This document shows, piece after piece, positions 4,490 to 30,168 of a DNA stretch of 34,165 bases. The stretch is from Candidatus Omnitrophota bacterium (GTDB lineage Bacteria > Omnitrophota > Omnitrophia > Omnitrophales > Aquincolibacteriaceae), in NCBI GenBank assembly GCA_028713205.1, contig JAQTOZ010000008.1, forward strand, positions 1 to 34,165, given 5' to 3'. The position numbers were made by a program, and so were the translations under genes. The notes beneath the pieces were generated by a model. It was not told where the DNA came from. It saw only the letters and a list, made by a program, of their open reading frames with translations, and ran no database searches. Position 1 is the stretch's first letter, and each line of letters opens with the position of its first letter.

Positions 4490-5839
4490 TCAGGTATTCA
4501 TGAAACGGCGAATGAGTTCAATTACCTCTCGCTTCTTTTCAAGCAGGATCTTTTCGTTATCCGCTTCCAGATTGAGCCGGATGGCAGGTTCCGTATTCGA
4601 TGCCCGTAAATTAAACCACCACGTGTCATATTCTACCGTCAGCCCGTCTAAAAAATCTTTCTTGGCATCAGGGTAACGGTCTTCCAGTACTTTAAAAACG
4701 GCTTGTTTCTCTTTGATCGCGAAATTGAGTTCGCCCGTCGAAACGTATTTTCTAAGCGGCGCAATCAATCCGGACATCGATCCTCCTTTAAGGGATAACA
4801 AATTCAGGATCTGGATCATCGTCATCAACGCATTGTCCGTGTATCCGGTATCACGATAATAGTAATGCCCCGACAGTTCTCCGGCGAAGGCAGCCTGCTC
4901 CTTTCTCATGGTTGCTTTGATAAAGGAGTGACCGACCCTGCAGCGCAAAGGGCGTCCGCCCAAACGCAGGATCGTTTCCGGCACGACCCGGCTTGATCGT
5001 AAATCATAAAGGATGGTCGCGCCCGGGTTTTTGGACAAAACAAATTCTGCCACCAAGGCGGTAATCAGGTCCTGAGAAATTCTCTCCCCTGTTTCATCGA
5101 TAAAGCCACAGCGGTCGGCATCTCCGTCAAAGGCGATTCCGATCGCGGCCTTTTCCTGAACGACCCGTGATTGGAGATCCCGGGTCGTTGAAACAATCAG
5201 CGGATTGGCAACATGGTGCGGGAATCTTCCATCCGGTTCCATGTACATCGTAACCGTATCCCACATCGGAAACTTTTTAAGAAATAATGCAAGCTCCGGA
5301 CCGGCAGAACCGTTTCCGGCATCGATGACGATTTTCAAGGATTGCGGTCGATGAACAAACCGGCTGAGCTTGTCGACATAGGCCTCTCGCCGATCAACCT
5401 GCTCGTAAGACGATCGAATCGCTTGTGGCTCCAAAGGCGCGGCGGTGAGCGTTCCCATCAAAGATTCAAGCGCCGGAAGTCCTTCGTCTCCGCTCAACGG
5501 GATGGCCTTTTCACGGCACAATTTGAAGCCGTTCATTTCCGCCGGCAAATGGGATGCCGTGACCATGACACCCGCGTCAAACGCACCTTCAATAATCGCA
5601 TCGTAAAGCGCCGGCGATGTCGTTAATCCCACATCCGCAATCACAACTTCCGAGGTCGCGGCGCCGGCAATAAAGGCTTTGCTGAGTGCCGGCGACGAGC
5701 AGCGTGAGTCATGCCCGATGACCATTCGTTTCGGGGAGAGCAACCGCACAAAGGCTGCACCGATTTTTTGGGCGGTCGTCTCATTCACTTCTTCCGGATA
5801 CTTCCCCCGCACGTCATATGCCTTGAAAATTCCGCTCAT
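4490..5839 (-). CDS. Phosphomannomutase/phosphoglucomutase (alpha-D-phosphohexomutase)
   Basis: 449 aa; FKAYDVRGKYPEE, TASHLPAEMNGFKLC (phosphoserine loop region), FDGDADRCGFID, GELSGHYYY, RASNTEPAIRLNLEA. Confidence 0.96.
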   Translation of the reverse strand: MSGIFKAYDVRGKYPEEVNETTAQKIGAAFVRLLSPKRMVIGHDSRCSSPALSKAFIAGAATSEVVIADVGLTTSPALYDAIIEGAFDAGVMVTASHLPAEMNGFKLCREKAIPLSGDEGLPALESLMGTLTAAPLEPQAIRSSYEQVDRREAYVDKLSRFVHRPQSLKIVIDAGNGSAGPELALFLKKFPMWDTVTMYMEPDGRFPHHVANPLIVSTTRDLQSRVVQEKAAIGIAFDGDADRCGFIDETGERISQDLITALVAEFVLSKNPGATILYDLRSSRVVPETILRLGGRPLRCRVGHSFIKATMRKEQAAFAGELSGHYYYRDTGYTDNALMTMIQILNLLSLKGGSMSGLIAPLRKYVSTGELNFAIKEKQAVFKVLEDRYPDAKKDFLDGLTVEYDTWWFNLRASNTEPAIRLNLEADNEKILLEKKREVIELIRRFMNT

Positions 5840-7103: not shown

Positions 7104-7850
7104 CTAACTTTGTTCTAAATCCTCGGTTTGCGGCGTAAACTGATCAAGCTCGTAGATATCCAGCGATCGTTCTAACTCCGCAACCTCATCCACGATTTTT
7201 TTGAATCCATCCGCACCGAACAAGGCCTGCTCTCTTTCCTCAAACCGATCGCTCATCTCGGCGAGCTCGGCGGGCGTGACGAGATCATGCAAGGCCGGAA
7301 AGAGCACCGTATCTTCGCGCGCGGCGTGCGGACGATACATCCGGATAAACGCCTGAAGGCAGGCCGCGAGATTGTTTTGATCTTTACCGAAATTATTCAA
7401 ATGTGCGGATACGGCATAAAGCAGGATACGGTCCGTCAATTGCCTGCCGGCCTGGTGCTGCGCCCGCAAACTTTTGACCAATTCGGCATAGCGGCTGTCT
7501 TTTTCAAGCTTCGGGAAAAGATATTCCTCTTCGAGCTTTTCGTGGTAATCCTCAATAAACCGTCGAACAATACCGGCGGATTTTTGCAGGTCTTCGCGCG
7601 GAAAACGCTTGCCCGCATGGATTCGCTCGATCATTTTTTCATCGCTCAGCAGGATCCTTCTGAGCACGCCGTGCTCGCGCATCAAATCCTCAACCGCCGG
7701 AATTTCACTCACTTGATCCGGCGATGCATCATTTACCGGTTTTGTTTCCGCATAGGCAAGCGCCATGGCAGCAAGGGATAAAACGGCCAAGAGCCATCCG
7801 CCTTTCCACCACCCGCAACAGCTCCCGGAAGAAAATCTGTCCTGTTTCAT
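7104..7850 (-). CDS. Exported hemerythrin (HHE) domain protein
   Basis: Start refined to MKQDRF; hydrophobic N-terminus (WLLAVLSLAAMALAYA); LMREHGVLRRIL, DYHEKLEEEYLFP, LRAQHQAGR, YRPHAAREDTVLFPAL. Confidence 0.88.
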   Translation of the reverse strand: MKQDRFSSGSCCGWWKGGWLLAVLSLAAMALAYAETKPVNDASPDQVSEIPAVEDLMREHGVLRRILLSDEKMIERIHAGKRFPREDLQKSAGIVRRFIEDYHEKLEEEYLFPKLEKDSRYAELVKSLRAQHQAGRQLTDRILLYAVSAHLNNFGKDQNNLAACLQAFIRMYRPHAAREDTVLFPALHDLVTPAELAEMSDRFEEREQALFGADGFKKIVDEVAELERSLDIYELDQFTPQTEDLEQS

Positions 7851-7867
7851 TTTTCTTTCCACAAAAC

Positions 7868-8497
7868 CTATTTCAACGGATACCAGACCTTGACACCCCT
7901 GACTTTGGCCCAAGGGGTCAATGTATGCCGCTTCAAGCTGTTGATTCCCAAGATATGCCGAACCTCAAACTTTCGCACGCACAACGCATCCGCGATCAGA
8001 GAACGATGACACCGCCACGGTACGGCCTCGGCACACATGATCACCACCCGTTGGCGTCCGGCCATCCGTATCAAAGGCTGCAGATTTTTGACAAACCCCC
8101 GTGTCTGCATATAATCGGCGTAGCCTCGAAACGAGGCATTGCGCCACGCCGTATTGACGGAGTCGGCTTTGGCATGCCGTAACCCGCCTAACCCGTCCAG
8201 ATGACAATACCGCAGGCCGGCGGCGCGGAGTCTTCGAGACAATATCGCGCGGTTAAACTGGGGATTATGCCGCGAGCGCGGAATGGTTCGCACATCGGCC
8301 ACCATCGCAATTTCGTGATTCCGTAAAACGGAGATAAATTCTTTCCACGTTCTGATCGAATGCCCGATGCTGAAAATCGTCCGCGCTTTCTTAGGCCCGC
8401 TTGGTTTAATACTTTTCTTCTTCCTTTCCTTCTTGGGCTTCTTTGTCTGCATATTTTTTTCAGCGAGTCGGCAATCATCGGATGGGAGACTTGCCAT
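7868..8497 (-). CDS. DUF488 family protein
   Basis: FSIGHSIRTWKEFISVL, VADVRTIPRSRHNPQFN, LDGLGGLR, RVVIMCAEAVPWRCHRSLIADAL. Confidence 0.93.
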   Translation of the reverse strand: MASLPSDDCRLAEKNMQTKKPKKERKKKSIKPSGPKKARTIFSIGHSIRTWKEFISVLRNHEIAMVADVRTIPRSRHNPQFNRAILSRRLRAAGLRYCHLDGLGGLRHAKADSVNTAWRNASFRGYADYMQTRGFVKNLQPLIRMAGRQRVVIMCAEAVPWRCHRSLIADALCVRKFEVRHILGINSLKRHTLTPWAKVRGVKVWYPLK

Positions 8498-13029: not shown

Positions 13030-14295
13030 TTACTTCACGAGCAGGATTTTATCCTGGGGCGCGCCGCAAATCGGACAATACGACGGTTTCTGATCGGCCT
13101 TGATCGTATAGCCGCACGAACTGCAGGTGTAGTACTCCGCCGGAGGAATGTCTTTCTGCTGCAGGTAATTTGCCCGGGCGTCTTCCAATAATTTTTTGTG
13201 GACTTTTTCCGCCTCGAGCGCATCCAGAAACGCGTACTTGGCCAGGCCGTGCCGCTTCTCCCGGGCATATTGCATAGTCTGCGGGTACAGGGTTTCAACT
13301 TCGTAGGTCTCGTTTCGAAGACTGTCCTCAAGGTTGCTCCCGACCGATCCCTTTTGACCCAAAACATAATAATGATTTTTTGCGTGGTAAAACTCCGATT
13401 CGGAAAGCGCCGAGAACAGCTTGGCAAGCCCCGCGAGCCCCTTGTCCTTCGCCTGTTCCGCAAACAGGCGGTATTTAAAATGAGCGGCCATTTCATTTTG
13501 ATAGGCTTGCTGCAAATATTGCGCCAGAGTCGCATCGGCAAGTTCAGTCTGATAAGCCTGGTCTTCAAGACCGATGGTCGCGTGCGACAACCGTTTTGAG
13601 TGATCGAATTCAAAACGGACGATATGATACCGGGCCTTCTTCTCATCAACCTGCTTGTCGACCGCTTCGATCCTCGCACCGCCCCCGCCCGACACAATGA
13701 TCGGAATATCGTCGATGGCATCCTCGAAATAGGAATGCACGTGGCCGCAAATCAAATAGCGGATCCTCTGCCGGTGAGGAGTGTAGATTTCGCGGAAAGG
13801 CTCCCATTGCTCACGGGAAAGACTGTTGCGCGTAAATGAGTTCGGCGGCGGGATATGAAACAGGATGACGACATTCTCATTCGGATATGTCGCGAGGGCA
13901 TGGCGGCAGAGCTCCAAGGCTTCGAAGCTGAACTCCCTTTTCGAATTGTCCAGGATAATAAATAAAATATCATCATTAAACAAAACGTAATTTCGCCTGC
14001 CGAAATAGGAATCAAAATATTCCGTATCGTGATTGCCGCAAATGGCAAACACCGGATTGGGGGCGAGCATCTCGATAAACTCGCTGACGTTTTCGTACAA
14101 CGGCTTCGATCCGAGCGGAACAAGGTCCCCGACGATAATACTGAAATCGACCGGCCTTGCATGCAAGGCCCTGGCAAAAATACTCATCGTCGCCGCCCCC
14201 AACCCGTCACAACCCGGATCTCCGATAATCGAAAAACTGCTGAAGGGAACGAGACGCAACGCTTGCTCTTGAATTTTGATCAATCCGTTTTTCAT
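13030..14295 (-). CDS. Metallophosphoesterase - rubrerythrin - rubredoxin-like fusion protein
   Basis: Start refined to MKNGLIK; N-term IIGDPG, IIVGDLVPLG, ICGNHDTEYF, LFHIPPP, ICGHVHSYF; C-term four-helix diiron motifs YQNEMAAHFKY, SESEFYHAKNH, RNETYEVETLYP, ALEAEKVHKKLL; CSSCGY..CPICGAP. Confidence 0.92.
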   Translation of the reverse strand: MKNGLIKIQEQALRLVPFSSFSIIGDPGCDGLGAATMSIFARALHARPVDFSIIVGDLVPLGSKPLYENVSEFIEMLAPNPVFAICGNHDTEYFDSYFGRRNYVLFNDDILFIILDNSKREFSFEALELCRHALATYPNENVVILFHIPPPNSFTRNSLSREQWEPFREIYTPHRQRIRYLICGHVHSYFEDAIDDIPIIVSGGGGARIEAVDKQVDEKKARYHIVRFEFDHSKRLSHATIGLEDQAYQTELADATLAQYLQQAYQNEMAAHFKYRLFAEQAKDKGLAGLAKLFSALSESEFYHAKNHYYVLGQKGSVGSNLEDSLRNETYEVETLYPQTMQYAREKRHGLAKYAFLDALEAEKVHKKLLEDARANYLQQKDIPPAEYYTCSSCGYTIKADQKPSYCPICGAPQDKILLVK

Positions 14296-14564
14296 CAGAC
14301 CTTTTGTGGAGCGGACAGCAATGGGTTTCTCTGCTTCGGTGGAGAACAGGCTACACTTTCCGGAGAAAGTTATCAAACAAAAACCTTATGATCCCGATAG
14401 ATTTCGGCCGGATGAATTTTGGCGGGAGCGGGCGTCTTCGTGGCTATCATGCGCACGGTCATCTTGATCGAAGGACACCAGGATATGGTCATTGCCTACC
14501 GGCAGGTCTCGCGGCACTGAAGCTCCTTTGAGATCCGTGATGGAAATGCCGGACACAAACCGGA

Positions 14565-15191
14565 TCAGAATTTCTCGCCCAAACTTCTTGCCAGGGCACA
14601 GGCCGTTTCTATCTTTTGGTCCCGCACCTGAGGACCTGACGCATCCATCGGCTGGCTGTTCACGAAGGCAATGTCCTCGACCCCGACAAAAGTAAAGATT
14701 GTTTTCAAATAAGGTTCCTGATGATCAAAGGCCCGTGTCTCCGCCGAACGATAATCACCGCCGCGGCTGGTCACAATGACCATTTTCCGGTTTTTCACAA
14801 GACCCTCGACACCGTTCGCGGTGTAGCGAAACAGATATTTCGGCTGCACGATAATATCGAGATAATGCTTGAGGACATACGGAATGCTGAAATTCCACAT
14901 CGGCGCGGTGATCAGATATCCGTCTGCCGAAAGAAATTTATTGATATGCCCGATAATGTCGTCCCAGGCCTCCTTTAAATTTCCAGGCAGGTCTTTGCCG
15001 CTGAGGAGCACATATTTTCCGTCCACCCTTTCTATGGTCAGGGGCGGGAGGGCTTCTTTAAAGAGATGCAACTCTTCCAGGGTCCAGTCATGATGCGCCG
15101 GGGTGAATGCCTCCAGAAAAGCATTGGACACCCTTAAGGTTTGCGACTCGTCCTCGCGCGGTGTCGCAATGATATGCAATAATTTTTTCAT
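14565..15191 (-). CDS. azoR: FMN-dependent NADH-azoreductase / flavodoxin-fold quinone reductase
   Basis: 208 aa; KLLHIIATPREDESQTLRVSNAFLEAF, APMWNFSIPYVLKHYLDIIVQPKYLFRYTANGVEGLV, TSRGGDY. Confidence 0.93.
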   Translation of the reverse strand: MKKLLHIIATPREDESQTLRVSNAFLEAFTPAHHDWTLEELHLFKEALPPLTIERVDGKYVLLSGKDLPGNLKEAWDDIIGHINKFLSADGYLITAPMWNFSIPYVLKHYLDIIVQPKYLFRYTANGVEGLVKNRKMVIVTSRGGDYRSAETRAFDHQEPYLKTIFTFVGVEDIAFVNSQPMDASGPQVRDQKIETACALARSLGEKF

Positions 15192-15686: not shown

Positions 15687-16892
15687 CTACCGGATAGTTC
15701 CGCACAGCTGCGCTTCGGAAATCGAAGCGTTTTTCAGGATGAGTTCGCGGGCCATGTCGAGCTTTCCCCAGACATTGCACAGCATCACTCCGCGGATACG
15801 GTCTTCGATCAAATAGTAAATAACACCCTTGCGGTTTTCCTCTTGCCAATCCGTTACCGTTTTGAGTCTGGCGTCAACCTCGCCCACCGCTTCATACCCG
15901 AATTCGAAAAGATCGGAGAAAAAGTAAGGCAAATAGTCATACGGCTTCGCCGCGCCCGCCATGTTTCTCCCCGCCTGTTTGCCCTGATTCAGGGCATTGT
16001 CCCAATGCTCCATGCGCACCCGTTTTCCGAGGGCCTTCGACGGAAAGAAGGCGTTGTCCCCCGCAGCGTAGATGTCGGAATTCGAAGTCTGAAGGTATTC
16101 GTTGACCACGATACCATTCTTGATTTCCAACTGCGCAGTCGCGGCGAGTGCGGTTTCAGGCTGAATCCCGATCCCGGCAATGACAATGTCCGAGGTGATT
16201 TCCACGCCTTTTTCCGTTCTCGTCAAAAACCTTTGCCCCTGGCGCGAGAACAACGCGGGCTTGTCACCGGCAAGGATCCGGACGCCTCTTTCAATGAAGT
16301 GCGCTTGAACCGCCAGGGACAAAGTTGCAGGAAAAACCAATTGGCAAAGGGAATCCTCCGGGAAAATCATGGTAACCTCAAGTCCGTTGACACACAGCGC
16401 CGCCGCCATTTCGGAACCGATAAACCCGCCGCCGATGATCACCGCAGACTTCCCGTGTGCGGCCCGGGTACGGGTCGCTTCGTAATCATCGAGAGTGCGG
16501 TAATAGCAGATTCCGTCCAAAGCGCCGCCGGGTATTGTCAGGCGACGTGGCTCTCCGCCTGTCGCCAGAAGAAGCTTATCGTAATGGTAGGCATTACCGG
16601 TATTGTCCGCGACGATCTTCCGGGAAGGATCGATACGCATCGCTGTGATGCCGAGCTTTAAATCGAGGTGATGCGCATAGTAAAAGGCAAGATCGTGGAG
16701 GAATATATCGTCCACATGTTTTTTGCCAAACCACAGTTTTTTGGTCAAGGGCGGCCGGTCATAGGGCAAAGAATCTTCCTTGCTGATAAGGAGAATCGAT
16801 CCGGCAGTGTTCATCTCCCGGATCCCCTCGATGGCGGAATCTCCGGCAAGCCCACCGCCGACGATCACAAAATTATAATTATCCCGGGCCAT
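15687..16892 (-). CDS. FAD-dependent pyridine nucleotide-disulfide oxidoreductase (ferredoxin/rubredoxin reductase-like)
   Basis: Start refined to MARDNYNF; FVIVGGGLAGDSAIEGI, SAVIIGGGFIGSEMAAAL, DIYAAGDNAFFP. Confidence 0.93.
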   Translation of the reverse strand: MARDNYNFVIVGGGLAGDSAIEGIREMNTAGSILLISKEDSLPYDRPPLTKKLWFGKKHVDDIFLHDLAFYYAHHLDLKLGITAMRIDPSRKIVADNTGNAYHYDKLLLATGGEPRRLTIPGGALDGICYYRTLDDYEATRTRAAHGKSAVIIGGGFIGSEMAAALCVNGLEVTMIFPEDSLCQLVFPATLSLAVQAHFIERGVRILAGDKPALFSRQGQRFLTRTEKGVEITSDIVIAGIGIQPETALAATAQLEIKNGIVVNEYLQTSNSDIYAAGDNAFFPSKALGKRVRMEHWDNALNQGKQAGRNMAGAAKPYDYLPYFFSDLFEFGYEAVGEVDARLKTVTDWQEENRKGVIYYLIEDRIRGVMLCNVWGKLDMARELILKNASISEAQLCGTIR

Positions 16893-17308
16893 CGGTCTCC
16901 TCCCTCGTTGCCTTCGCCCCAACACACAACGTTTGACCTCACACGCACTTCACCTTGAAACCACTTATAGCGTAAACTCGGAAGAGTCAGATGAGAATAG
17001 CAGCGGCTCACTTTTGATTGACTTTATCCCACTACGTCTCTCTCGTATCGAGAACGCTATCCGCGCTTGTCTCACGATCGGCCCCCCAGACCTGAGGCAA
17101 TCAATGCTTGTGCAATGACTATCCGTCCCGCGTTGAAATCCGTAAATTGGCGTGGACCGCCTTTTTTTGATTTTTGTCTACCCGTGATTTGGGCAGATAC
17201 CTTCGGAAGTTATCTGGAAGGTTATACGTAAAGACACGGCGGCATTGGATTTAATTTATCGGATGAATGCCATACAGCGACATGGGGAGTACCAAAACGG
17301 AGCGGATT

Positions 17309-26651: not shown

Positions 26652-27338
26652 TCATTTCATCAACGGTTCTTTCTTTACGTCCGGGACAGGAATCGCATCT
26701 TCCAGACGCAAAAAATGCCGCAATCCGGACAATTCTTTTTCGGTGTCTTGGACAAAACTCTCATATTTCAAAACCGCGAGCTTGTCGCCCAGCGCGGTCT
26801 GCAGATACGACATCTGCCGATGATGCGCAAGCCATCTGAGGGCCCCTTGTGAAACAAACGGTAACTGTTCATACCCCGCGGCAATCTCCTGAGTGATACC
26901 CAGAAATTGATTCGGAATCGGATACTTGCGCCACCGCTTATGCCAACGCGCCCCCCCCTTGTGCTTCATCATACTCGCGATCGTGGCAAACGGGTCCCTT
27001 TCGATGCCCACGAATTGTGCGTTGGGGAAAGTTTTGTGTAAATCCTCGGCAAGCCATAGATTCGGGTGACTTTTATCTAAATACCTGCGCGGCACCGACC
27101 TCATCATTTCGTATTTATACTGTCGGATAAGTCTTGGAAACAACTTCTTCCGGGTCCCGGGATTCAACGCCATGGTCAATACCCACCGAAACATCGGGTT
27201 TTTCTCAATCGTAGCCCGAATCGACAGATACCCTCCGAGCGCATAACCCACCAAGTGTGTTCCGGATCGGCGTGATCCCAGAACAAAAATGGGATTTTGG
27301 AACTCTGTCTTGAATAAGACCCTGGGCTTTTTAAACAC
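26652..27338 (-). CDS. Sulfotransferase family protein
   Basis: PIFVLGSRRSGTHLVGYAL (5'-PSB loop), FVGIERDPFATIASMM (3'-PB motif). Confidence 0.85.
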   Translation of the reverse strand: MFKKPRVLFKTEFQNPIFVLGSRRSGTHLVGYALGGYLSIRATIEKNPMFRWVLTMALNPGTRKKLFPRLIRQYKYEMMRSVPRRYLDKSHPNLWLAEDLHKTFPNAQFVGIERDPFATIASMMKHKGGARWHKRWRKYPIPNQFLGITQEIAAGYEQLPFVSQGALRWLAHHRQMSYLQTALGDKLAVLKYESFVQDTEKELSGLRHFLRLEDAIPVPDVKKEPLMK

Positions 27339-27497
27339 GTTTCCTTTTCAACCCGCAGTGATTTTAAAGTTTCCCGGCTGACGAAGATAAAACCGCCGCC
27401 CGATTATATCAACGCCTTCCGATTGATAATCCCCCACACGGCACATCCGGCCAGGAATCCTGACCGGGCCAATCTCTCTTGAGACCGTCCCTCAAAA

Positions 27498-28643
27498 CTA
27501 AAACGAAAAAACCACTTTCCCGCCGATCATATGTGTGCCGAGATTTTCATGCTCCTGAATATTGGTTTCGGAATTTTGAACGGTTTTCAAATCGGCCGAA
27601 ACCACGGGATTTTCGATACCGGATAACCAGAGCCATTGGTCAAACTGGTAAAAAAAACTCAGGGTCGCCCATCGGGTCATCTTGTAGCCTAACTCGATCT
27701 GACTTGAGAAATGAGACGTGTATTTGCTGTCACTGTCGCGCATCGAAATCCGTTCATTCAGGTCCGCAAAATTAAATCCCCCACCCATCATGCCGCTGCC
27801 ATGGACAATTTCTTGAGATGCCGTGAGGCGGCCCGCATTCAAAAAACCCCCAAAAACCTGCTCGAAGGACAGGAATATCTTTTTACACAATTCCAGATGC
27901 CCCAGAAAACCCAAGCGTCCCCCAAACAGGTTTTCTGCCAGTTTCTCATCCGTCGTGGAGGAAGTCGGTCCCCCGTTTACGGCATTGGTCCCCCAAGTGT
28001 TCAACCGGAAATCCTGAAAAAAACGGACAAAGGAAGGCCCCGCGAAAAGATCGAAACGGAAGCGGTTTTTTTCAAGCAGATGGTAGGTCCCGCGAAAAGA
28101 AATATCGTAGTAATGAAGCGTGTAATCAAACTTGGCCGCGCTGGCCCGCGTTTGAAGCGCTATCGGGCTGGCGCTGACAAAATATCCGAAGGATTGATCC
28201 GTCGCATGCGCCCGCCCGTCAATGAAGCCCACGAGGGTGAGTTGCCCCGCCCCGACGGCGGGCAAATTATCTTTTGTCTGGGTATTGGCGGAAAAAGACT
28301 GGGAGAAGGACAGCTGGTAATCAAATTTCTTACCGGGCAATGTCGCCGTAATTTCATACCCCCCGCCCCAATCGTCACGGTTAAAGGACAGCGGTTCTTC
28401 CCGGCCGGGAAGCCCGCGGATGACGACATCGCCCCACTCCCCGGTATTGGCAATTTTGAAATTCCGTGAACGGTCAAAGTGAATGCCGCCTCCGTCAACA
28501 TCGACAATAATTTTTGCTGCCGCCGGCGGCGTTTGGCTGATTGAAGGGGGGAGTTCTTGGGAAACAGCCAACTGCGCAAAACTGCCCCCCATCCAAAGGA
28601 ACATCAGCAAAAACGCAAGATGACGAAAATGACAGTGCTTCAT
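27498..28643 (-). CDS. Outer-membrane beta-barrel protein
   Basis: Start refined to MKHCHFRHLAF (signal peptide); alternating beta pattern; C-terminal GGKVVFSF ending in Phe. Confidence 0.75.
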   Translation of the reverse strand: MKHCHFRHLAFLLMFLWMGGSFAQLAVSQELPPSISQTPPAAAKIIVDVDGGGIHFDRSRNFKIANTGEWGDVVIRGLPGREEPLSFNRDDWGGGYEITATLPGKKFDYQLSFSQSFSANTQTKDNLPAVGAGQLTLVGFIDGRAHATDQSFGYFVSASPIALQTRASAAKFDYTLHYYDISFRGTYHLLEKNRFRFDLFAGPSFVRFFQDFRLNTWGTNAVNGGPTSSTTDEKLAENLFGGRLGFLGHLELCKKIFLSFEQVFGGFLNAGRLTASQEIVHGSGMMGGGFNFADLNERISMRDSDSKYTSHFSSQIELGYKMTRWATLSFFYQFDQWLWLSGIENPVVSADLKTVQNSETNIQEHENLGTHMIGGKVVFSF

Positions 28644-28704
28644 AGTGCCTTGAACCCGTTGAGGGTATCGTCCGTTCAAGCCTTGGGCTTGACGACACCT
28701 TTTG

Positions 28705-30168
28705 TTAAAATGAGAAAGAAGCGCTCAGGGAAAGATTGGATTCCCGATCGTTGGATTCTGCCGGGAAAGCCGCCCCAGGGAAGAAAAGACCGTAACTGAC
28801 CGAAATAAAAAGATCCGAAAAAACGGGCCAGGCCACAGCAAAATCGATTTCACGGCCGATATCCGATGATGGTTGCGTTGCGTCGATATCATAAACGCCA
28901 CCCTTCGCAACAGCTTTCCAATAAGCATATCCGTTGCTGATGATTTCCAATTTCCGGATGGACCAGATTTTCTCAAACGGTTTCAAAGAAACCCCGGCCC
29001 TCAAAATCTGAATATTCGAGAGCGTCGGCGCAAGGGCATAGCCGTTAGGAAAAAATCCGAGCGGGAGGAAATTGTGGTCATACCCGTTCAGGTTCCCGCC
29101 TTCGGTGTTCGTCACACTCGAACGGTCCGTATCTCCGGATCCGAAGGCATATTCGACACTGACCTCGGGTTTCATCCAGCACGGAACGGTATAACTTGCC
29201 CCGAGATCCAATCCGTGCGCCAGCACGGGGTGTCGCGCGTCCTCCCCGTAAACGGCCGAACTACCGGTCTCAAAAATATATTCTCCCCATAACGAAACCC
29301 CGCGTATAGCCTGATAGATGCCCCCCAGGCTCCAATATTGCGAATGATAAGCGAAATCCTGGCCATCGTCGGGATTGGGTTTGCTGTCATCGTGCTGGAT
29401 CAGAAAATAGTTGTATAAACTCAAGTTATCTTTAGGGGTCCAGATGGTTTGAGCGCCGACAAACTTGCGATCGCTTTTCTTGTCGAAACCGGGGACACTG
29501 AAATCAATATTTTCCGTGAAGGGCACGGTCTTTGCGACAAAACTTTCAAACTTAAACTTAAAAAATTCGAGGGTTAACTTTAGGGCGTCATAGATATCGG
29601 CCAGAGCAATCCCCTGGCCGAGATTTAAATATTGGCGGCCGGAGCGAAAGGTCGCGTACTGAAGGTCCAGATCGAGATAGAGAAGATCGACACGCGGACC
29701 AACATTATCGTCCCGGTGACCGAGCAACAGTTCTTCTTTGGGCCAGCTGGACATGTAAAGATCCCGGAACTGGGCGAAAACGACATGTTCAAAATGATGG
29801 GGATTCTTTTCCCCCAACTGATGCCGGACGATCCCTTTCACCCAGATCCGCGAGTCGACTAAAATTTCAGCGTCGTAGACATCCCGGACCTCCCGATTAT
29901 TATCATCGTTATGGTAGTCGATATAGTCAAAATCCGCATATCCGCCGAAATCGAGAAGGAAATTCCGGGCCTTCGGGGCAACGGCCGCTTCCTTTGCCAG
30001 GGTATCCAAATACCTTCCGCGTTCCCGCAATTGAAGATTTTCTGTCAGCCGTCCTTGAGCAGCCCGGGCATTGATCTCTTCGGCCCATATCAAATTGTCC
30101 GGCATTAGACTTTGCAAAGAAAAAACAAAGAGAATTAGAATAGAAGCTGTTCTATTCACCGCGAACAT
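28705..30168 (-). CDS. Alginate-export (AlgE)-like outer-membrane porin
   Basis: 487 aa; signal peptide; FRSGRQYLNLGQGIALADIYDALKLTLEFFKFKFESFVAK; C-terminal LSLSASFSF. Confidence 0.72.
   Translation of the reverse strand: MFAVNRTASILILFVFSLQSLMPDNLIWAEEINARAAQGRLTENLQLRERGRYLDTLAKEAAVAPKARNFLLDFGGYADFDYIDYHNDDNNREVRDVYDAEILVDSRIWVKGIVRHQLGEKNPHHFEHVVFAQFRDLYMSSWPKEELLLGHRDDNVGPRVDLLYLDLDLQYATFRSGRQYLNLGQGIALADIYDALKLTLEFFKFKFESFVAKTVPFTENIDFSVPGFDKKSDRKFVGAQTIWTPKDNLSLYNYFLIQHDDSKPNPDDGQDFAYHSQYWSLGGIYQAIRGVSLWGEYIFETGSSAVYGEDARHPVLAHGLDLGASYTVPCWMKPEVSVEYAFGSGDTDRSSVTNTEGGNLNGYDHNFLPLGFFPNGYALAPTLSNIQILRAGVSLKPFEKIWSIRKLEIISNGYAYWKAVAKGGVYDIDATQPSSDIGREIDFAVAWPVFSDLFISVSYGLFFPGAAFPAESNDRESNLSLSASFSF

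Follow-up and report, generated by a model that had tools for sequence, protein, structure and literature searches.

Rubrerythrins of the Pyrococcus furiosus type (PDB entries 1nnq and 2hr5) and nigerythrin consist of a four-helix diiron domain followed by a C-terminal Fe(Cys)4 domain, and rubrerythrins work as dimers. Purple-acid-phosphatase-type metal centers classically switch between activity and inactivity with their oxidation state. The class III phosphodiesterases (GpdQ, Rv0805) have a D(X)H signature (PMC4320098), and purple acid phosphatases are characterized by the DxG/GDxxY motif set (PMC5591292 and others). A metalloenzyme and a rubrerythrin are also found in one chain in an anaerobe, namely in CperHydR, the [FeFe] hydrogenase-rubrerythrin chimera of Clostridium perfringens, in which the two active sites are coupled and electrons pass from the partner domain to the diiron site (PMC11926857).

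The stretch of DNA analyzed here (hereinafter, the window: 34,165 nucleotides of a contig of a Candidatus Omnitrophota bacterium) encodes a protein, P0001, that resembles each of these systems in part. Its C-terminal half has the domain order of the P. furiosus-type rubrerythrins and nigerythrin but is located behind a phosphoesterase and belongs to a clade of its own, in which two members are diiron-less. The N-terminal half finds its best PDB matches among the class III phosphodiesterases and conserves motifs II–V, whereas D(X)H is replaced by D(X)G-C and a rubrerythrin is attached. With purple acid phosphatases, it has the DxG motif I and the fold in common but lacks the Tyr of GDxxY, and the C-terminal half is unrelated. 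In contrast to CperHydR, where the partner is a hydrogenase feeding the diiron site, the partner domain in P0001 is not a redox enzyme but a hydrolase fold without redox turnover of its own. Finally, stand-alone metallophosphoesterases of Omnitrophota, Verrucomicrobia and Desulfofustis (L036-L045, L102-L110) possess the same GDxGC motif I, including the Cys, and the remaining ligands, but no rubrerythrin in the same ORF. A tardigrade ferritin-like phosphatase, considered as a lead and set aside, combines a ferritin-like protein with an Ig-like domain, with no metallophosphoesterase named (PMC11616004). No title or abstract describing a phosphoesterase-rubrerythrin fusion was found in the open-access literature, and a paper on rubrerythrin evolution, searched for fusions, makes no mention of phosphoesterases. 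The components are known, but the architecture appears to be new, "undescribed" here meaning not found in the open-access literature.

Domain architecture and metal ligands

An earlier note, made from the letters of the window, proposed that a phosphoesterase and a whole rubrerythrin-rubredoxin module are joined in one ORF, and suggested a domain search on both halves. Pfam domains, predicted folds and ten homologues agree on this organization: judged by the curated cut-offs, all three domains of P0001 are above threshold, which covers both halves (Table 1), and the Metallophos and Rubrerythrin domains are both above cut-off in the ten fused homologues scanned. The ORF list extends the gene upstream to a TTG at 14376; however, the ATG at 14295 is the preferred start because the fused homologues share the start Met and the length (MKQGL... 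in L035, 420 aa). An AAAGG-like stretch is seen by eye directly upstream of this ATG. No signal peptide was seen by eye either, and P0001 is best explained as a cytosolic two-module metalloenzyme.

Table 1. Coordinates of the fused gene, its domains and predicted ligand motifs, and two upstream neighbors (window positions)
Feature	Coordinates	Strand	Remarks
Fused gene P0001, metallophosphoesterase - four-helix rubrerythrin - rubredoxin-like domain	13030..14295	-	421 aa + stop
Metallophos domain, residues 23-189	13729..14229	-	Pfam PF00149, 48.1 bits vs cut-off 21.5
Motif I, D26-P-G28-C29, DxG form	14209..14220	-	D, G, C invariant in 23 fused and stand-alone relatives (alignment)
Motif II, G56-D57, bridging aspartate	14125..14130	-	invariant in alignment
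Motif III, GNHD (87-90)	14026..14037	-	alignments
Motif IV histidine H147 (FHIPP)	13855..13857	-	invariant in alignment
Motif V, GHVH (184-187)	13735..13746	-	H185 and H187 invariant in alignment
Rubrerythrin diiron domain, residues 260-371	13183..13518	-	Pfam PF02915, 48.7 bits vs cut-off 22.8
Diiron ligand E268	13492..13494	-	alignments
Diiron ligands E301 and H304 (E-FYH)	13384..13395	-	alignments
Diiron ligands E329 and E332 (E-TYE)	13300..13311	-	alignments
Diiron ligands E363 and H366 (E-KVH)	13198..13209	-	alignments
Rubredoxin-like Fe(Cys)4 domain RUBY_RBDX, residues 389-416	13048..13131	-	Pfam PF21349, 33.8 bits vs cut-off 26.5
Flavodoxin_2 / FMN-reductase-like protein	14565..15191	-	upstream neighbor, 270 bp from fused gene
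FAD/NAD(P)H pyridine-nucleotide-disulphide oxidoreductase, Pyr_redox_2 and AIF_C match	15687..16925	-	farther upstream

The predicted phosphoesterase ligands of P0001 are D26, D57, N88, H147, H185 and H187, all conserved in 10 of the 10 full-length fused sequences, as well as in L146, and kept by every intact fused member. When stand-alone relatives are included (23 aligned sequences), D26, G28, C29, D57, H147, H185 and H187 are invariant, and D(X)G takes the place of the class III D(X)H in 23 of 23. The GDPG sequence, initially taken for a departure from DxH, is therefore a conserved GDxGC motif, with the DxG form (D26-P-G28) characteristic of purple acid phosphatases; GDLVP, listed as an odd motif II, turned out to be ordinary, given that GpdQ carries GDIVNCG in this position. 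The description as a "divergent phosphoesterase" holds insofar as this is a subfamily with a DxG motif I, but one that is conserved and keeps the six usual metal ligands, and since these are present in every intact member, the phosphoesterase half, although divergent, is probably not dead.

Motif II lacks the Tyr of purple acid phosphatases, position 60 being P, H or A in the fused members, so that a redox-active Fe(III) site may not form. The M1 metal site would then have one protein ligand fewer than in the DxH or DxG/Y types, unless the gap is filled by C29 or some other residue. By sequence-profile and fold comparison with the PDB, the nearest solved relatives of this half are GpdQ and Rv0805, followed by purple acid phosphatases, to which the sequence matches are weak. 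The NCBIfam models of cyclic-nucleotide phosphodiesterases match P0001 weakly as well, far below their cut-offs.

The invariant Cys that follows DxG could be a metal ligand or a redox switch. It is independent of the rubrerythrin fusion, being carried also by stand-alone phosphoesterases. These form a metallophosphoesterase subfamily whose motif I is invariably GDxGC (or ADPGC) (L036-L045, L065-L067, L102-L110) and which is represented in Omnitrophota, Verrucomicrobia, Spirochaetota and Desulfofustis. No rubrerythrin was detected in the ORFs of the stand-alone GDxGC genes, nor adjoining the 5 whose surroundings were listed.

In the C-terminal half, the rubrerythrin-type ligand set noticed earlier is complete in P0001 (E268, E301, H304, E329, E332, E363 and H366), and the CxxC..CxxC end is indeed rubredoxin-like, with C391, C394, C407 and C410 inside a RUBY_RBDX match above cut-off. 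In the PDB sequence search, residues 258-419 align to P. furiosus rubrerythrin 1nnq (E 8e-36, 38% identity), whose diiron ligands and cysteines line up with those of P0001. The NCBIfam equivalog models for rubrerythrin and nigerythrin, with cut-offs of 200 and 340 bits, are not reached (61 bits), which indicates a related domain rather than the stand-alone enzyme.

The AlphaFold2 monomer, built from a 24-row alignment, has a mean pLDDT of 93.4 and a pTM of 0.85. Foldseek matches the rubrerythrin half of the model to P. furiosus rubrerythrin (TM 0.91 on the target) and the phosphoesterase half to Rv0805, GpdQ and the rat and pig purple acid phosphatases. The fused copies are near-constant in length (about 418-423 aa) and have no long flexible linker, which, together with the pTM, suggests that the two modules are held in a fixed arrangement.

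Distribution and origin of the fused family

A scan of genome contigs with a single-sequence query returned nothing, whereas an alignment-based query recovered fused homologues. Altogether, the fused architecture is found in 14 genomes, fragments included, from three bacterial phyla. The class of Lentisphaerae bacterium GWF2_44_16 accounts for 7 of these: GWF2_44_16 itself (L035, 57% identity to P0001, full length), G495, G510, G792, G654, G1434, and G1438 with a fragment. Spirochaetota contribute three copies, one intact, one split between contigs (G088) and one internally deleted (G060); the Treponema copy L046 is 42% identical to P0001. Outside of the source genome, Omnitrophota carry the fusion in three genera of another family (G890, G1057, G1032). 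In evenly drawn phylum samples, the fusion is present in 5 of 390 genomes for the phylum of GWF2_44_16, in 4 of 286 for Omnitrophota, the source genome included, and in 2 of 395 for Spirochaetota. It is missing from all 297 genomes of the Desulfofustis phylum, which have one stand-alone phosphoesterase, and the source genome has the only fused copy among the 47 genomes of its order. The plasmid collection yielded stand-alone rubrerythrins only, and the fusion was not found in viral contigs. Thus, the distribution is wide, patchy and rare.

In the Treponema bin Kf353_bin129 (L047/L057), the fused gene is internally deleted from about motif II through motif IV, with a frame change; this could be a natural pseudogene or an assembly error.

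The source assembly is a MAG of 3.1 Mb in 295 contigs. The tetranucleotide usage of the contig correlates with that of the other contigs of its own bin at r 0.979, compared to 0.5-0.8 for Lentisphaerae or other fused loci, which supports a contig native to the bin; misbinning is rejected as an explanation of the fusion. A frameshift joining two genes, one of the refuting cases named in the earlier note, and a misassembly are both excluded, since other genomes carry fused copies of their own. An assembly, binning or frameshift artefact is accordingly extremely improbable, despite the fragmentation of the MAG and a phosphoglucomutase/phosphomannomutase gene in the window (4490-5839) that is only about 35% identical to the genes of all relatives and has a second copy in the bin (contig C112), given that fused copies recur independently in many genomes and that contig composition equals bin composition. 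Because the same chain recurs in three phyla, the fused protein is, judging from these comparisons, a genuine and apparently undescribed enzyme family.

A maximum likelihood tree of the phosphoesterase half separates the ten fused sequences from 16 stand-alone relatives and unites them in one clade (SH-aLRT 99). The fused rubrerythrin halves also group together in their own tree (SH-aLRT 100), to the exclusion of 27 stand-alone rubrerythrins. A single fused clade in both trees fits one fusion event, and the simplest reading is that this event was followed by vertical and lateral spread. Given the three phyla and the one clade per half, the linkage has survived considerable divergence, with identities as low as 42%. 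The phosphoesterase tree joins P0001 to the Lentisphaerae copy (support 90) and not to the remaining copies from Omnitrophota; combined with its being the sole fused copy in the order, this suggests that it was acquired by lateral transfer. The synonymous sites of the fused genes are saturated, such that dN/dS values are unusable except as being consistent with constraint.

Loss of the diiron site and gene surroundings

None of the 14 fused copies lacks any of the four rubredoxin Cys, and 11 of the 14 have intact diiron ligands. Two members from another Omnitrophota family, L119 (5222-6484) and L120 (5487-6740), have a degraded diiron site (E301A, E332D, E363R/K, H366Y); in L118, the change is H304Q. 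Nevertheless, L119 and L120 keep all predicted phosphoesterase ligands and the four rubredoxin Cys, and both their Metallophos and Rubrerythrin domains still pass the Pfam cut-offs. The phosphoesterase and Fe(Cys)4 are therefore the constant pair, and this pattern of ligand loss points to the phosphoesterase as the activity that stays constant in the fused family. The existence of diiron-less members also speaks against obligatory peroxide chemistry and lends weight to a redox input through Fe(Cys)4 or to a structural role. Separate rubrerythrin and desulfoferrodoxin genes are located about 2.4-3.9 kb upstream of the fused gene in the L119 genome, suggesting that peroxide defense is not wholly lost there.

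Of the neighbors in the window (Table 1), the Flavodoxin_2 / FMN-reductase-like protein is a possible redox partner of the fused protein, and the Pyr_redox_2 oxidoreductase is a candidate rubredoxin reductase. In G654, a flavin reductase-rubredoxin fusion (L093:2144-2887) is encoded directly upstream of the fused gene on the same strand and is a candidate electron donor. In G1057, genes for an oxidoreductase, a rubrerythrin, an FMN reductase and a desulfoferrodoxin are found upstream. The redox neighbors at these three loci are suggestive only, and most loci show none. An all-against-all comparison of neighbors found no family common to the fused loci, and a conserved operon partner was rejected on this basis. 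No cyclase or signaling partner was identified in the neighborhoods examined. A role in anti-phage defense was also considered and rejected, as PADLOC gave only a weak superfamily-level match.

Several other genes in these surroundings deserve mention. About 5 kb from the fused gene, the window encodes a hemerythrin HHE domain protein (7104-7913), a member of another non-haem diiron family, and sulfotransferase-family and alginate-export-like outer membrane genes are clustered at 26652-30168. In Lentisphaerae GWF2_44_16, a phosphoesterase-type ORF (L035:1321-2853, minus strand), the C-terminal half of which resembles, by eye, a PHP-type domain, adjoins the fused gene and is divergently transcribed.

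Possible coupling between the two modules

The fusion itself is solid, and its conservation, the complete ligand sets of P0001 and the predicted folds are shown; that its two modules may be coupled, with electrons passing between them and gating as a result, is inferred, as are the metals and the substrate. Tentatively, and at somewhat less than an even chance, we propose that the fused redox module serves to maintain or gate the metal center of the phosphoesterase. The N-terminal half, with its Rv0805/GpdQ fold class and DxG motif I, would hydrolyze a small phosphate mono- or diester, and the C-terminal rubrerythrin-rubredoxin module would accept electrons from cellular flavoprotein or rubredoxin reductants. 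These electrons would keep an oxidation-prone, probably iron-containing phosphoesterase center active, i.e., reduced or mixed-valent, either by reaching it via Fe(Cys)4 or by serving the diiron site in clearing peroxide from its vicinity, or in both ways. Phosphoesterase activity would thereby track the cellular redox state when an anaerobe encounters oxygen. Such maintenance or gating is consistent with the presence of all domains above cut-offs and their linkage across three phyla, the constancy of phosphoesterase and Fe(Cys)4 as opposed to the variable diiron site, the purple-acid-phosphatase form of motif I, and the redox genes in the vicinity of three copies (window, G654 and G1057). Furthermore, the metals bound in this class of metallophosphoesterases include redox-active Fe or Mn (PMC4320098), and the [FeFe] hydrogenase-rubrerythrin chimera sets a precedent for the coupling of two active sites (PMC11926857). 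The proposal is weakened by the variable gene neighbors, with most loci having no redox genes, by the absence of the metal-binding Tyr, without which a redox-active Fe(III) site may not form, and by the loss of diiron in two members, which makes peroxide chemistry dispensable.

Alternatively, the chain could harbor two independent activities, an NAD(P)H/rubredoxin-linked peroxidase and a housekeeping phosphoesterase, co-expressed under oxidative stress with no cross-talk, for example, one removing peroxide and the other cleaning up a damaged or signaling nucleotide. The peroxidase ligand set is complete in P0001 and most members, as this would predict, and the genes near the window, G654 and G1057 copies include redox and oxidative-stress genes. 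However, if the peroxidase were the purpose, L119 and L120 would not be expected to retain the module and Fe(Cys)4 after losing the diiron, and the near-constant length, the lack of a long linker and the pTM suggest a fixed arrangement. We regard this explanation as rather unlikely, although less so than those that follow.

Rubrerythrins form helix-bundle dimers, and Rv0805 and GpdQ are oligomeric, which counts in favor of the rubrerythrin half being mainly a dimerization or iron-handling scaffold, or an iron feeder to the phosphoesterase, with redox secondary. The retention of the fold in two members in spite of diiron ligand loss would also fit. Yet a pure scaffold needs neither the Cys, invariant in 14/14, nor the diiron, intact in 11/14, and a primarily structural role seems distinctly unlikely. 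Still less probable is strict peroxide gating, an idea raised in the earlier note; in the form considered here, H2O2 at the diiron site would alter the conformation or the electronic state of the protein and so switch second-messenger hydrolysis on or off. The diiron and Fe(Cys)4 sites are complete and do lie beside a class-III-phosphodiesterase-like domain that weakly matches cyclic-nucleotide phosphodiesterase models, but these NCBIfam matches are far under the cut-offs, members without diiron exist, and no cyclase or signaling partner is found in the neighborhoods examined.

Returning to maintenance or gating by the redox module, it is possible, though on the doubtful side, that this is a family of redox-governed phosphoesterases, in which the covalently attached rubredoxin/diiron relay would serve to reduce or gate the binuclear center, and Fe(Cys)4 would be the only input left in one sub-branch. 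If true, this would, to our knowledge, be the first phosphoesterase controlled by rubredoxin-type electron transfer. The Fe/Mn hydrolases of anaerobes need protection from oxidation, and the fusion, kept across three phyla, makes it possible to probe the redox maintenance or gating of a hydrolase directly in one soluble protein, with the diiron-less members as natural controls.
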